Shown: positions 26,361-31,801, counted from the stretch's first letter. The stretch: 64,000 bases of DNA from Methanohalophilus profundi (GCF_004137855.1 NZ_QBKB01000002.1:1437368-1501367); one strand, 5' to 3'. Numbers and translations: made by a program. Notes: generated by a model from the letters alone, not told the origin.

Positions 26361-27079
26361 ATGATCGGTATCTCTTCGTTTGCTTATCACGACTTATCTC
26401 TTGGTGAAGCTTTACAAAATATTGAACACGTTGTCAATTGTGCAGAAATCTTTTCCGAAGGAAAACATGACCTCTTCAGGCAGGATGAAATCGCTTTTTC
26501 CTATGACCTGGAATATACGGTTCATGCTCCCAGTACAGACCTCAATCTTGCAAGTATTCGTGAGCCTATAAGGAATGCAGCTCTTCAACTTGTGGAAGAC
26601 ATGGCAGATATTTGTAATGAAATTGATGCTGAAGTCATGGTTGTCCATCCTGGTTATTTCCCCTTTGCTTATGATAGGGATTTTGCATTTAATGCATTCC
26701 AAAAATCGTTGCCTGTACTGGAAAGGATTGGTGAGGATGCCGGTGTACGGATATGTGTGGAAAATATGCCCAAATGGGAATGTTTCCTTTTCAGGGAACC
26801 GGATTTGAGATAGGGGCAAATGATTTTGTACTGGATATTGGTCATGCCAACACAATGGGCAATCTGGAGGCTTTTCTTGAACGTGAGATTTCCCATTTTC
26901 ATATTCATGATAACCACGGGAATAACGATGAACATTTGCCTCCTGGTGAGGGAAACATTGATTTTTCGGCCATACAGGGATTACTCCGCCAAAACAACTC
27001 TATTAAGATAATTGAGAACAAATCAGCTGAAGATGCCCTTCAGAGTATTTTTGCTCTGAAAAATATGGGTGTCAAATAA
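26361..27079 (+). CDS. Endonuclease IV/sugar phosphate isomerase-like TIM barrel (one frameshift)
   Basis: About 239 residues after restoring one T near 26804-26806. It is an AP endonuclease family 2 / xylose isomerase-like barrel. Metal-binding motifs appear in order: VHAPS near residue 57, VVHPGYF near 97, VENMP near 134, DIGHANT near 161 and HIHDNHG near 181. The family includes both DNA repair endonucleases and sugar epimerases. Presence at the front of a probable DNA-repair block favours the former but does not prove it. The stop of the 5' fragment is a shifted-frame TAG, not a recoded one. Confidence 0.78.
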
Positions 27080-27094
27080 ACAAATCCAGTTAAA

Positions 27095-27103
27095 TTTATA
27101 TAT
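27095..27103 (+). promoter_or_regulatory. TATA box, leaderless ArsR transcript
   Basis: TTTATATAT centred about 27 bases before the ATG at 27126, so the transcript is expected to begin at or next to the start codon. Confidence 0.6.
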
Positions 27104-27125
27104 TTACAATTCACTTGACTTATGT

Positions 27126-27641
27126 ATGAGTTCGATGGGATGCAGGATTTTTCATGCACTTGGTAGTGAAACCCGGATTAAAATACTGGAACTCTTAAGC
27201 AGCAACGAAATGCATATATCTGAAATTGCCCGGGAGCTGGATATTTCAGTACCGGTAATTTCCAAGCATGTAAAGGTACTTGAAGAATCCGAACTCCTTG
27301 AAAGACATATTTTCGGTAAATCCCATGTATTAAAACCCAACAGGAAAAATATTCATCTGGCCGTTGATTCGTTTGCTCCCACCAGGCATGTGGAAGTCGA
27401 GAAAGGTGCCTCCCTTATGGAAGCCCTGCGCAATGTGGCAGATATTGATGTCAGGAAAAAGGGAGATAGGGAGATGATTGTTTCTACTGATGGGGAGGAA
27501 GGTCTTTTTGTTTATGAGATTGATGGCCAGTTCGGGGATAAAAACGTGAATGACTGCGTGCTGGAAGATAATACAATCGTGGACTGGAAAAAGCTGGAAC
27601 CGGTCACAAGGATTCGGCTGGACATTCATGTCAGGGAATGA
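27126..27641 (+). CDS. ArsR-family transcriptional regulator with C-terminal DUF4430-like region
   Basis: 171 residues. Residues 1-75 are a clear ArsR winged helix (FHALGSETRIKILELL, then ISEIARELDISVPVISKHVK and a RHIFGKSHVLK wing). The rest is an alpha/beta region with EGLFVYEIDGQ and NTIVDWKKLEP that looks like a small ligand-binding fold. Start ATG 27126 fits the box A spacing for a leaderless message. No CxC metal site is visible in the recognition helix. It sits between the endonuclease-like gene and the radical SAM gene and may control them. Confidence 0.8.
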   Translation: MSSMGCRIFHALGSETRIKILELLSSNEMHISEIARELDISVPVISKHVKVLEESELLERHIFGKSHVLKPNRKNIHLAVDSFAPTRHVEVEKGASLMEALRNVADIDVRKKGDREMIVSTDGEEGLFVYEIDGQFGDKNVNDCVLEDNTIVDWKKLEPVTRIRLDIHVRE

Positions 27642-27680
27642 AGGTGCCCAATGAATACTTTCAATCCACTTTCTTGTCTC

Positions 27681-27688
27681 TTATATAG
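27681..27688 (+). promoter_or_regulatory. TATA box of the radical SAM-HhH operon
   Basis: TTATATAG lies about 27 bases before the ATG at 27711. No ribosome site precedes that ATG, which again fits a leaderless message. Confidence 0.5.
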
Positions 27689-27710
27689 GCGATGAACTTA
27701 GTTACATGTA

Positions 27711-28847
27711 ATGAGTATTCCTTCAGACGGCTATCATTTCACTTTGCATGAGAGAATGCGATACCTTTCCTCGGGTACAAAGTATGACAGCTGTAACCAG
27801 AGTGCAGTATGCCACGCTTTCGGGCCTGACGGGCGCTGTATACAATTATACAAGACATTGCTGACCAACTACTGTGCCGGAGAATGTACCTATTGCCCGA
27901 ATCGCTGCCATAGGGATGTGCGCAGGGTTTCCCTGTCCCCGGAAGAAATTGTGAAGATTACCTGGGATTTTTACAGGAAAAATGCGATTGAAGGCCTGTT
28001 CCTTTCCTCCGGTGTTATCGGGGATCCTGAAACAACAACCGAAAAACAACTTCATGTGGCCCGTCTATTGAGAAGTCAGGGGTTTAATGGCTATATCCAC
28101 CTTCGACTCATGCCCGGTACACCTTTGCATTTGCTGCAGGAGGTAGCCGGGGTTGTCAACAAATTCGGGGTAAATGCAGAAACAGCGGGTTCTGTGAACT
28201 ATTCGGAAATATGTCCCAATTTCGATTACAAGAATGATGTCCTTCAGCGTTTGAACTGGACCTGTAAATTGATAAGAAAACAGAGGAAATTGCACAGATA
28301 TGATAGTAAGATCATAGGTGCCAACGATACCCAGTTTGTGGTGGGTGCCCTTGACGAACCCGACAGGGATATTGTGAATACCGTGCATGATTTCATGGAA
28401 AAATTCCAGTTGCGCAGGCCTTATTTTATGAGTTTTGACCCGGTTCCTGATACGCCGCTTGAGAATGGTTCAACATCTCCGAAATGGAGGGAACAGAGGC
28501 TCTATCAGGTATCCTATCTTTTGAAGGATTATGGCCTGGATTCCGGGCATATTGATCAAATCTATAATGATGATGGTTTCCTTTTGAATGAGGATCCAAA
28601 ACTAGAACTTGCCCGGCTTAACCCGGAAATGTTTCCTGTAGAAATAAACAGTGCCGATTACTCTACTTTGCTCAGGGTGCCGGGTATAGGGCCTATAAGT
28701 GCTTCCCGTATCCTGATATCCAGGCCAATTTATGGGGAGGATGAACTTGCACGTGTGGGTGTTGTTATAGGTCGTGCACGCTCCTTTATCAAAATTGGTG
28801 GTTCCGGGCAAACTAACCTTATACAGTTTGCAGGAGAATGCACATGA
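27711..28847 (+). CDS. Putative DNA modification/repair radical SAM protein with HhH
   Basis: 378 residues. The radical SAM cluster ligands are C55, C59 and C62 in CAGECTYC. Three further cysteines (C28, C34, C43) precede them and could hold another cluster. The C-terminal 70 residues contain a helix-hairpin-helix (LLRVPGIGPISASRI), the usual DNA-backbone-binding element. The protein matches the family described as uracil-DNA-glycosylase-linked radical SAM (TIGR03916), which is paired in genomes with the protein encoded next. The reaction is not known. Its stop overlaps the next start (ATGA). Confidence 0.85.
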   Translation: MSIPSDGYHFTLHERMRYLSSGTKYDSCNQSAVCHAFGPDGRCIQLYKTLLTNYCAGECTYCPNRCHRDVRRVSLSPEEIVKITWDFYRKNAIEGLFLSSGVIGDPETTTEKQLHVARLLRSQGFNGYIHLRLMPGTPLHLLQEVAGVVNKFGVNAETAGSVNYSEICPNFDYKNDVLQRLNWTCKLIRKQRKLHRYDSKIIGANDTQFVVGALDEPDRDIVNTVHDFMEKFQLRRPYFMSFDPVPDTPLENGSTSPKWREQRLYQVSYLLKDYGLDSGHIDQIYNDDGFLLNEDPKLELARLNPEMFPVEINSADYSTLLRVPGIGPISASRILISRPIYGEDELARVGVVIGRARSFIKIGGSGQTNLIQFAGECT

Positions 28848-29697
28848 TTATTCTTTTTGAGGCCACTGTGACAGGTGTCTTACTGGCCTGTCTGGAATTG
28901 AGGAAAAGGCCTGAGGCAGATCTGGTTTTTGCCTGTGATCCCGGAGAAGGGGAAACGAAATTGAAAATGTCCAACCCGGCAGCTGAAGTAATTCGGGTTG
29001 GATTCAATAGTAAGGTTGATAAGCAGCAGTTGGTCGAAAGAGTTTTTCCCGATGGGTGGCACAGAATAACCAATTTTGATTCCCCTCCATTAAATTATAT
29101 AGAATTGGTGCTCAGGCACAGGAAATGCAATCCTGCAGAGTTTGTGAGGCTATTGCATGGGTGTGAAGGGGTGGTAGATGGTCTTTATTGTGGTAAAGAA
29201 AGACTTTGCAAGCGATATTACCGGTACATGCGTGAGGTCAAGAACAATTATCACAGACTTGCATGTTTGTGCGGCCAGTTTGCGGAGAAACAGTCCTTTA
29301 TGCAAATGTAACTCCCAAAAACCGTGTGTCTGATATGCTTTGCAGGTGGCTTGCAGTACGCAATCCAGATAGGGCGGTAATTGTTGTTGATGGAATGTTT
29401 GCTTATGTATGCAATGGTGAAATCCTGAAGATGCAGCACTTCCTGAAAACATCTGTGGATTTAATACAACATTTGATTCCTTCTGAAGATTCTGCTAATC
29501 TGGAAGAATTGTGGGATACTTACTACAAAAGCCAGATGATAGACAACAGACGCAACCATTCACTTTCAATAAAATTACAGCCCCGCGGGGATTCCGGCTA
29601 TAGTACAATGTCTAAAAAAGACCGGTATTTTGTAGAGCGGGGTATTCCCACATCTACACTACTTGATTTTGTGAATGAGAAACAAGGTGGTCAATAA
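28844..29697 (+). CDS. TIGR03915-like DNA metabolism protein (one frameshift)
   Basis: About 284 residues after restoring one base near 29258-29262, which joins the first 139 residues to a frame beginning with FVRPVCGETVLYANVTP. The latter half resembles the conserved core of the partner always found beside the radical SAM-HhH family. It shows a FVR strand, an LYANVTP strand and a final helix-rich region with FVERGIPTS. Function is unknown; linkage to DNA glycosylases in other genomes suggests repair of base damage. GGAG lies upstream of ATG 28844. Confidence 0.78.
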
Positions 29698-29698
29698 T

Positions 29699-31801
29699 AT
29701 GCAGTCACTGGTTGATGCTCCGCGTATAGGGGAAAAGATGGCACAGCGCTTTATATCTCATTTTGGATGTGAAGAGGATGCCATGGCGGCAATTCTCAGA
29801 GGTGATATAGCCAGTATATCGGAGATCGAAGGAGTAGGTAGAAGATATGCCATATCCCTCGTACACGATGTGAGGTCTACACAGGATGGTATTGATATCT
29901 CCTCTTTTTTGAAAACCCGGGATTCAGTCGATATTTATGAGCGGGTAATCGATTCTATCAAAAATTATGCTTCTACTCCTTATGCAAGGGATAAGTTGCA
30001 CACCTATATCCCATATCCTTCAAGCAGGAAAGACCTTATTGGCATAAACCGGGACTGGGTTGAAAACCATATGGAATATCTCTCCATGCTCGATGATATG
30101 AATGGGGTTTCAGCAAGTCTTTCCAGAATAAAACCCCTGAAAAACTCTCCTTCAATTCCCCGGATCAGGGATAGGGCAATTGTCACTTCAAATACCGATG
30201 ATTACAGCACTTTAAAGGAAAAATATGGTAAAAGCATTGAGGTCCAGCTGGTGGAAGATCCTCTGGAATTTGCAGATGTTGCACGCAGTTATCCCCATGT
30301 AATTGCCATAGGAGAACCCTTCCTGGAGTATGATTTTCCAGAGGGCACGAATCCCGAAATAATAACAAATGCCCGGGAAATTGAGGAATGGCATATTTTA
30401 CCCGAAAAACAAATTTCTTTCTTTGCTTTCAATCATGAACGGATAATGAATGCATTGGATCTTGCAATAACACTGGATAAAGCGGGCATACCTTCAATAG
30501 TCAATGCGGATCTTTCGGCTCTTTGCAATCTCATGGCTGCCATTAATCCTGAAGGAAATATTGTTGAGGGCAGGGACGGGGAAATAGACCGCTTACATCA
30601 TATTCTGGACAATGTGGATTCGGAACTTACAAAATATGTAGACCAGTGCAACCGGGAAATAAATGATCTCCTCCAGAAAAGTAGTATTACACTCAGCGGG
30701 AATGATATGTTGGGTGTTATCAGGGATGAGGTGGAGTTAAAGGATATTCTTTCACGCAATATATCGGCATCTTTCAGCCAGATAATTAATGATGCCAGGA
30801 AAGAATTCATCGAAACCCTTTCACTGAAGCAAAATGAATGCCTATTTGTGGATTATTTTTTCCCCTCTGAACTTTGTTATCCTGTAGAAGCCGACACGTC
30901 CCAGTTACAAAAATTCAAAGAACAGATCAAACAGCAGATATTCCGCAGGGAAGTGACTCATAAAAGGGATATTGCATATGAGCTACACGAATTCAGGCAA
31001 CACCTGAAACAACTTGTTATGAGGTTACTTGATCTGGATGTGGGTTTGGCAGTGGCCCGTTTTGGTCATTCTCTGAAGATGCAACTTGCCGGCTTTGAAG
31101 ATGAATGTGGTATGGGAATCAAGAATGGAAGAAATATTTTCCTTTGCGAAAAGGGCGTTGATGTGGAACCTATAGATTATTCCCTGGGCTCGATAATGTC
31201 TCCTTCGCAAGTTCCCACTTCTGCGGTAGTCCTGTTGAGCGGTGTGAATTCCGGAGGAAAAACATCCATGCTGGAGTTAGTGGCTCAATGTACAATTCTT
31301 TCCAATATGGGTTTCCCTGTGCCGGCAGATGAATTAAAGATCGGGCCGGTTGATAGTTTGTATTATTTCAGCAAATCCAGGGGTACTCTTGATGCGGGGG
31401 CCTTTGAAACAACCTTACGCTCATTTTCAGCTCTGGCAGGGGCGGGATCCAAACTTGTGCTTGTCGATGAACTTGAATCCATTACCGAACCTGGAGCTTC
31501 TGCAAAAATCATAGCCGGGATCCTTGAGACCCTTTCTGAAGAATCCAATACAATGGCTATTTTTGTTTCCCATCTTGCCGACCAGATACTGGAAAATACC
31601 GATGCCTCCATCAGGGTAGATGGAATTGAAGCAAAAGGACTTGATAATGAATTGAACCTGATTGTTGATCGCAATCCGATTTACAATCATATTGCAAAGA
31701 GTACTCCGGAGTTAATCGTGGAGCGTCTTTTCAGAAGTGGGGGGGAAGTTGAAAGGGAGTTTTACAGACGTTTGAAAAATAAATTCGAAAAAGGATGCTA
31801 A
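29699..31801 (+). CDS. MutS-related ATPase with N-terminal helix-hairpin-helix
   Basis: 700 residues. The N-terminus carries a helix-hairpin-helix (DAPRIGEKMAQRFI and IEGVGRRYA). The middle is helical, like the MutS core and clamp. The C-terminal ABC-type ATPase has Walker A GVNSGGKTS near residue 515, Walker B LVLVDELES near 590 and an FVSHLADQ switch. It lacks the MutS mismatch-recognition domain, as do archaeal MutS-related proteins of unknown role. It starts one base after the TIGR03915-like gene, so the three genes form one operon. Its stop is shared with a hairpin facing hisB. Confidence 0.85.
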   Translation: MQSLVDAPRIGEKMAQRFISHFGCEEDAMAAILRGDIASISEIEGVGRRYAISLVHDVRSTQDGIDISSFLKTRDSVDIYERVIDSIKNYASTPYARDKLHTYIPYPSSRKDLIGINRDWVENHMEYLSMLDDMNGVSASLSRIKPLKNSPSIPRIRDRAIVTSNTDDYSTLKEKYGKSIEVQLVEDPLEFADVARSYPHVIAIGEPFLEYDFPEGTNPEIITNAREIEEWHILPEKQISFFAFNHERIMNALDLAITLDKAGIPSIVNADLSALCNLMAAINPEGNIVEGRDGEIDRLHHILDNVDSELTKYVDQCNREINDLLQKSSITLSGNDMLGVIRDEVELKDILSRNISASFSQIINDARKEFIETLSLKQNECLFVDYFFPSELCYPVEADTSQLQKFKEQIKQQIFRREVTHKRDIAYELHEFRQHLKQLVMRLLDLDVGLAVARFGHSLKMQLAGFEDECGMGIKNGRNIFLCEKGVDVEPIDYSLGSIMSPSQVPTSAVVLLSGVNSGGKTSMLELVAQCTILSNMGFPVPADELKIGPVDSLYYFSKSRGTLDAGAFETTLRSFSALAGAGSKLVLVDELESITEPGASAKIIAGILETLSEESNTMAIFVSHLADQILENTDASIRVDGIEAKGLDNELNLIVDRNPIYNHIAKSTPELIVERLFRSGGEVEREFYRRLKNKFEKGC

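Follow-up and report, generated by a model that had tools for sequence, protein, structure and literature searches.

The window, the whole 64,000-nt stretch of DNA that was analysed, belongs to an archaeal assembly of 1.83 Mb in 4 contigs. Judged by the sequence of its named relative Methanococcoides alaskense (L112), its family is Methanosarcinaceae; the relative has the same gene order, and its radical SAM protein is 96% identical to that of genus g4 of this family. Five genes lie in a row on the plus strand (Table 1), with frames, strand and order as given in the first-pass annotation. Its naming of an ArsR regulator, a radical SAM protein with a DNA-binding-type helix-hairpin-helix (HhH) and a MutS-related ATPase starting with HhH is borne out by profile matches.

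Table 1. Genes and motifs of the locus (window positions), and loci of the GroEL paralogue in other lineages
Feature	Position	Strand	Remarks
AP_endonuc_2-fold TIM barrel	26361..27079	+	frameshifted before 26807; neighbour, probably outside the trio
ArsR-type winged-helix regulator	27069..27641	+	PF01022 2e-12; relatives place the true start probably near 27126
Radical SAM protein with C-terminal HhH, TIGR03916 (rSAM_link_UDG) type, 378 aa	27711..28847	+	TIGR03916 287 bits, E 2e-85
Second cysteine motif CHAFGPDGRC (Cys34...Cys43 of the radical SAM protein)	27810..27839	+	tracks DUF4130 presence
CxxxCxxC radical SAM cluster motif (Cys55, Cys59, Cys62)	27873..27896	+	invariant in two alignments (A1 and A4)
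HhH of the radical SAM protein (residues 310-338)	28638..28724	+	PF12836/PF00633; PDB profile matches to ComEA HhH
DUF4130/TIGR03915 partner	28838..29697	+	PF13566 41 bits; 1-base deletion before 29261; 286 aa in intact relatives
HhH + MutS domain V ATPase, archaeal MutS5 architecture, 708 aa	29675..31801	+	MutS_V 3e-08, HHH_5 4e-04
N-terminal HhH of the MutS-like ATPase (residues 11-61)	29705..29857	+	PF14520; RuvA-like match
Walker A (SGVNSGGKT) of the MutS-like ATPase	31238..31264	+	kept in 32 aligned sequences
Walker B region (...VLVDE) of the MutS-like ATPase	31454..31471	+	kept in 32 aligned sequences
GroEL-paralogue loci, just downstream of DUF4130			L121, L124, L138, L144, L147, L154, L159, L164, L179

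A single base is missing from a short run of equal bases in each of the barrel and DUF4130 genes, which splits both, and the same type of lesion is present in the genes for ADP-glucokinase (25140) and HisB (32003). Since four neighbouring genes share the lesion and close relatives (about 94-95% DNA identity) have all four unbroken, the deletions are most likely sequencing or assembly errors, and the proteins were therefore studied in intact relatives. The window's assembly probably holds many more such one-base errors.

The radical SAM protein has the CxxxCxxC motif, the C-terminal HhH and the DUF4130/TIGR03915 pairing that mark TIGR03916. Its score of 287.4 bits is under the curated cut-off of 343.5, which is reached in only 3 of 150 genomes of the class; the Radical_SAM and HhH profiles were matched with E-values of 3.9e-07 and 1.4e-04, respectively. 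Radical SAM proteins that come with DUF4130 carry a CH[x]GRC motif shortly ahead of CxxxCxxC. A DUF4130 gene lies near 98 of the 104 genes coding for this motif and near none of the 19 without it. Three of the six exceptions with the motif are at or near contig ends, or possibly hide an unrecognised partner. The partner had been called obligate, which holds for the CH...GRC subfamily and not for radical SAM homologues at large. In the maximum-likelihood tree of 70 proteins, computed from sequences that include the motif region itself, the motif requires six changes, of which well-supported branches force at least five. Repeated joint change of the motif and DUF4130 argues for their direct functional coupling, possibly a new observation as far as open-access papers show. 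Spore photoproduct lyase (SplB) likewise belongs to the radical SAM enzymes for which DNA is the proposed target, but the protein studied here differs by its HhH and its obligatory partner; a profile search of solved structures with the latter protein found no SPL chain at E 0.01. Two loci with unusual neighbours were also seen. In Thermodesulfobacteriaceae (L125:8169-9275), a radical SAM gene with the motif is followed by a gene for a B12-binding protein, with no recognisable DUF4130, and at L216:9098-10162 the gene of a motif-less homologue shares 13 nt with a DUF763 gene.

In the window, the DUF4130 match to PF13566 reaches the gathering score. The intact relative L062 scored 46.7 bits with TIGR03915, below the curated cut-off of 112.25. 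No sequence relative of DUF4130 was found in PDB. As the model of the Methanococcoides protein was poor (pLDDT 64.6), a Chryseobacterium homologue was modelled (pLDDT 92.6, pTM 0.87). Its top PDB matches in Foldseek belong almost all to the DHH phosphoesterase superfamily, including RecJ nucleases and a Pyrococcus DHH domain; PAP phosphatase 8a8k was matched with E 1.7e-4, probability 1.00 and TM 0.40. DUF4130 is thus predicted to be a remote, possibly non-catalytic DHH/RecJ-like scaffold, and such a fold would predict a nucleic-acid role. Against this part of our proposal stands that the fold comes from structure prediction, at the TM value given, and that no sequence profile agrees: Pfam gave no DHH match with the limit set as loosely as E 10, and a DHH motif could not be made out. 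The DHH-like fold is possibly new as far as open-access papers show. An earlier prediction saw in DUF4130 an enzyme related to mutagenesis and associated with SplB-like radical SAM proteins and with uracil-DNA glycosylases (UDGs) (PMC3765255). A search of the open-access literature found nothing on TIGR03915/TIGR03916 beyond one remark on DUF4130. In genome G003 the otherwise open DUF4130 gene has one in-frame TAG (L065:11174-11176, minus strand), which in Methanosarcinaceae could stand for pyrrolysine, be an error or mark a broken gene.

Walker A, Walker B and the C-terminal core of the MutS-like ATPase are kept in 32 relatives. Its closest NCBIfam match is KamC, the lysine 5,6-aminomutase reactivase, with 87.3 bits (cut-off 300), followed by MutS2 with 58.2 (cut-off 400) and MutS with 41, all short of their cut-offs; the protein differs from KamC also by its HhH and longer N-terminal part. 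A Pfam scan matched HHH_5 and MutS_V and found neither Smr nor a mismatch-binding domain. The ATPase is present in 147 of the 150 class genomes, mostly with no linked radical SAM pair, and the pair is often absent altogether. The protein fits archaeal MutS5, an assignment made by architecture and class-wide spread and not by comparison with a characterised MutS5. It shares with that group the N-terminal HhH, MutS domain V, lack of a detected Smr and class-wide presence, but stands here in an operon with a radical SAM pair. For archaeal MutS5, Holliday-junction binding is cited in PMC11276520, for a Pyrococcus protein. Anti-phage defence was considered and rejected: PADLOC gave no match for the radical SAM protein, DUF4130 or the barrel, and only a marginal one to AbiLi (0.0037) for the ATPase.

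The upstream TIM barrel had been described as endonuclease IV-like. Its membership of the AP_endonuc_2 fold family stands, but it is not a recognisable Nfo: intact relatives score 16.9-27.3 bits with Nfo (cut-off 129.65) and 43.6-61.5 bits with CbiR (cut-off 105), so that the barrel is nearer to CbiR and far below both cut-offs. These scores do not support an endonuclease IV. His, Glu and Asp positions resembling the nine metal ligands of endonuclease IV, which we take, by eye, to correspond to those of the E. coli enzyme, are invariant among nine relatives, and the barrel is therefore probably a metal enzyme. It is inherited separately from the trio downstream, and a five-gene unit was for this reason not retained. 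In G003 (there with an ArsR neighbour) and G132 the barrel lies elsewhere than the trio, in G008 and G076 it stands with ArsR and MutS5 but without the radical SAM pair, and in most genera no barrel adjoins the trio. At L069:4475-6702, in the arrangement of genera g5 and g8, ArsR is preceded by genes for a CbiZ-like amidohydrolase and a further AP_endonuc_2-like barrel, a hint that the barrels found here may have a role with cobamides.

The unit borne out is a trio of the radical SAM-HhH protein (TIGR03916 type), DUF4130/TIGR03915 and the HhH-MutS ATPase, and it is a conserved operon-like unit in Methanosarcinaceae. Forty-nine genomes of the family have a strong match of the radical SAM protein. 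In all 47 that carry both outer genes on one contig, these are 841-946 nt apart, which is the length of the DUF4130 gene and more regular than chance would give; in the remaining two the radical SAM and MutS5 genes are on different contigs. The genes overlap or nearly touch, with overlaps of 4-23 nt at linked loci. In the window, the radical SAM gene overlaps DUF4130 by 10 nt, and DUF4130 overlaps the ATPase gene by 23 nt. Together with the adjacency in the contiguous genomes, this agrees with the first-pass view of the last three genes as one operon. Of the five-gene order, whose conservation across archaea was proposed there as a check, the trio is kept within one family; the barrel is found at other places too, and in sister lineages the pair is apart from MutS5.

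The trio persists across genera, as do the oppositely oriented his genes downstream, but the genes upstream vary: g1 and g4 have the barrel and ADP-glucokinase there, g5 and g8 the CbiZ-like gene and a different barrel. The his-metK block downstream is also syntenic, and the adjacency of the trio may thus partly be plain gene-order conservation. ArsR adjoins most of the linked trios and is a possible regulator of them; its homologues are also found elsewhere in genomes without the trio. Genera g6, g7 and g12 are without the pair and have MutS5 at another place, and g3 is without the pair and has ArsR-MutS5 still in place. In a sister family the pair stands by itself. In family f5 of the class it is apart from MutS5, by hundreds of kilobases where one contig has both. 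Outside the family, the radical SAM protein has its closest relatives (59-61% identity) in the f14 genomes, which are labelled Methanocellaceae-like by inference, tree position being among the grounds. There it is paired with DUF4130, and MutS5 is about 10.5 kb from the pair in one genome, while three have it far away or on a separate contig. Identity of the radical SAM protein from genus to genus is about 70%, like that of HisG and MetK; DUF4130, at about 40%, and MutS5, at about 47%, evolve much more quickly. One pair (L087, genome G142) is on a 4.1 kb contig and falls inside the Methanosarcinaceae clade though the genome is of another family, which could be transfer or contamination.

A scan of one genome per species gave 592 relatives, of which 80 were fetched; a BLAST-recognised DUF4130 was close by in 64 of these. 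The order in Sphingomonadales is ImuB, radical SAM protein, a DUF4130::UDG fusion and DnaE2, and a UDG fusion is present in a myxobacterium (Myxococcota), in line with the earlier statement that both families associate with UDG genes in other genomes. In Lachnospiraceae and relatives, a DinG/Rad3-like helicase gene lies near downstream of the pair (11 loci). A family-B DNA polymerase is encoded upstream of it in four f14 genomes (L212, L213, L214 and L215), with one to a few small genes between. In nine loci of uncultured Bacilli/Tenericutes, a gene for a GroEL paralogue of about 510 aa, below the GroEL cut-offs, overlaps or touches the end of DUF4130. A UDG beside the trio in its own genome was sought and rejected, as both UDG-family genes are more than 100 kb from it. 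The archaeal trio shares with the TIGR03916/TIGR03915/TIGR03914 set the adjacent, overlapping genes of the paired radical SAM-HhH protein and DUF4130, but it is a divergent branch under both cut-offs and has the HhH-MutS ATPase instead of an adjoining UDG. The UDG fusions and the ImuB/DnaE2, DinG-like helicase and family-B polymerase genes beside the pair make its role in DNA repair or damage tolerance likely.

We propose, with a probability of roughly 50%, that the trio is an oxygen-sensitive unit for processing DNA damage. The radical SAM protein would be held on DNA by its HhH and would use SAM and a 4Fe-4S cluster to form a 5'-deoxyadenosyl radical acting on an unusual DNA base. DUF4130 would be its dedicated partner, probably a scaffold of DHH/RecJ-like fold without a recognisable DHH motif that binds DNA or nucleotide phosphate, docking at the CH...GRC motif. 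The MutS5-like ATPase would recognise branched or stalled-fork structures and would have been recruited to co-expression with the pair in Methanosarcinaceae only. We infer DNA as the substrate, a pyrimidine lesion linked to UDG chemistry, complex formation and the function of MutS5. UDG-linked repair of a pyrimidine lesion is our best guess, and the chances of a working trio with MutS5 are about even. The proposal is supported by the trio order, kept with overlapping or near-touching genes in all contiguous family genomes while upstream genes differ, by HhH in both outer proteins, by the co-variation of the motif with DUF4130, and by repair genes beside the pair in separate lineages. The DHH-like model of DUF4130, the earlier prediction for this family and the Holliday-junction binding cited for archaeal MutS5 also speak for it.

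Against it stand the near-universal presence of MutS5, mostly with no linked pair, and its separation from the pair in sister lineages. MutS5 is evidently not dependent on the pair, and it could instead be a mere syntenic neighbour with no joint work, the self-contained pair having landed beside it in the family ancestor and stayed; we regard this as a tentative but real possibility. Such a history would suit G008 and G076, which lost the pair and have ArsR-MutS5 in place, the separated genes of the Methanocellaceae-like and f5 genomes, the equally syntenic his-metK block, and the G142 pair, inside the family clade without an adjoining MutS5. It agrees less well with the turnover of upstream genes while the trio held, and the overlaps suggest translational coupling. 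The ATPase may also serve to reactivate or assemble the radical enzyme and not be a DNA clamp, which would match the annotated role of KamC towards lysine 5,6-aminomutase. KamC is its best NCBIfam match, well ahead of MutS2, and the GroEL paralogue, also an ATP-driven protein remodeller, is the third operon gene in one bacterial lineage; we nevertheless find this role improbable, with the KamC cut-off far off, a DNA-binding HhH at the start of the protein and the ATPase kept in many genomes without such a radical enzyme. It is speculative, and to be given little credit, that the ATPase loads, remodels or reactivates the radical SAM protein on branched DNA at stalled forks, an ATP-driven clamp gating the radical reaction with no mismatch patrol. 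If true, this would make it the first case of radical SAM chemistry working together with a protein of the MutS family.

Nucleic-acid modification is common among radical SAM enzymes, and the NCBI family name reads 'putative DNA modification/repair', so the pair might install a DNA or RNA base modification rather than repair damage. We hold this unlikely, as patchy presence, loss within genera and the ImuB/DnaE2 and UDG settings better fit a damage response. Hardly credible by now is the first-pass proposal that all five genes make up a single excision pathway in which the barrel serves as AP endonuclease. The genes are adjacent in this genus and the ligand-like columns of the barrel are kept, but the barrel has no Nfo-level score, is missing beside the trio in most genera, lies elsewhere in two genomes, and in two others stands with ArsR and MutS5 where the pair is gone.

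For the damage-processing reading, the operon that joins the pair to a MutS-like DNA-junction ATPase strengthens the case for a radical SAM protein acting on damaged DNA. The repair link of the pair was already predicted (PMC3765255), and the operon with MutS5 in one family is new as far as open-access papers show. The pair occurs widely among both bacteria and archaea and has so far carried only the label of its family name. Cultured methanogens, where it is linked to MutS5, a sister group in which a family-B polymerase is its neighbour, and bacteria that have it with ImuB/DnaE2 would offer tractable hosts and a short list of candidate substrates. The CH...GRC motif, which comes and goes with DUF4130, marks a region of the enzyme suited to mutation.
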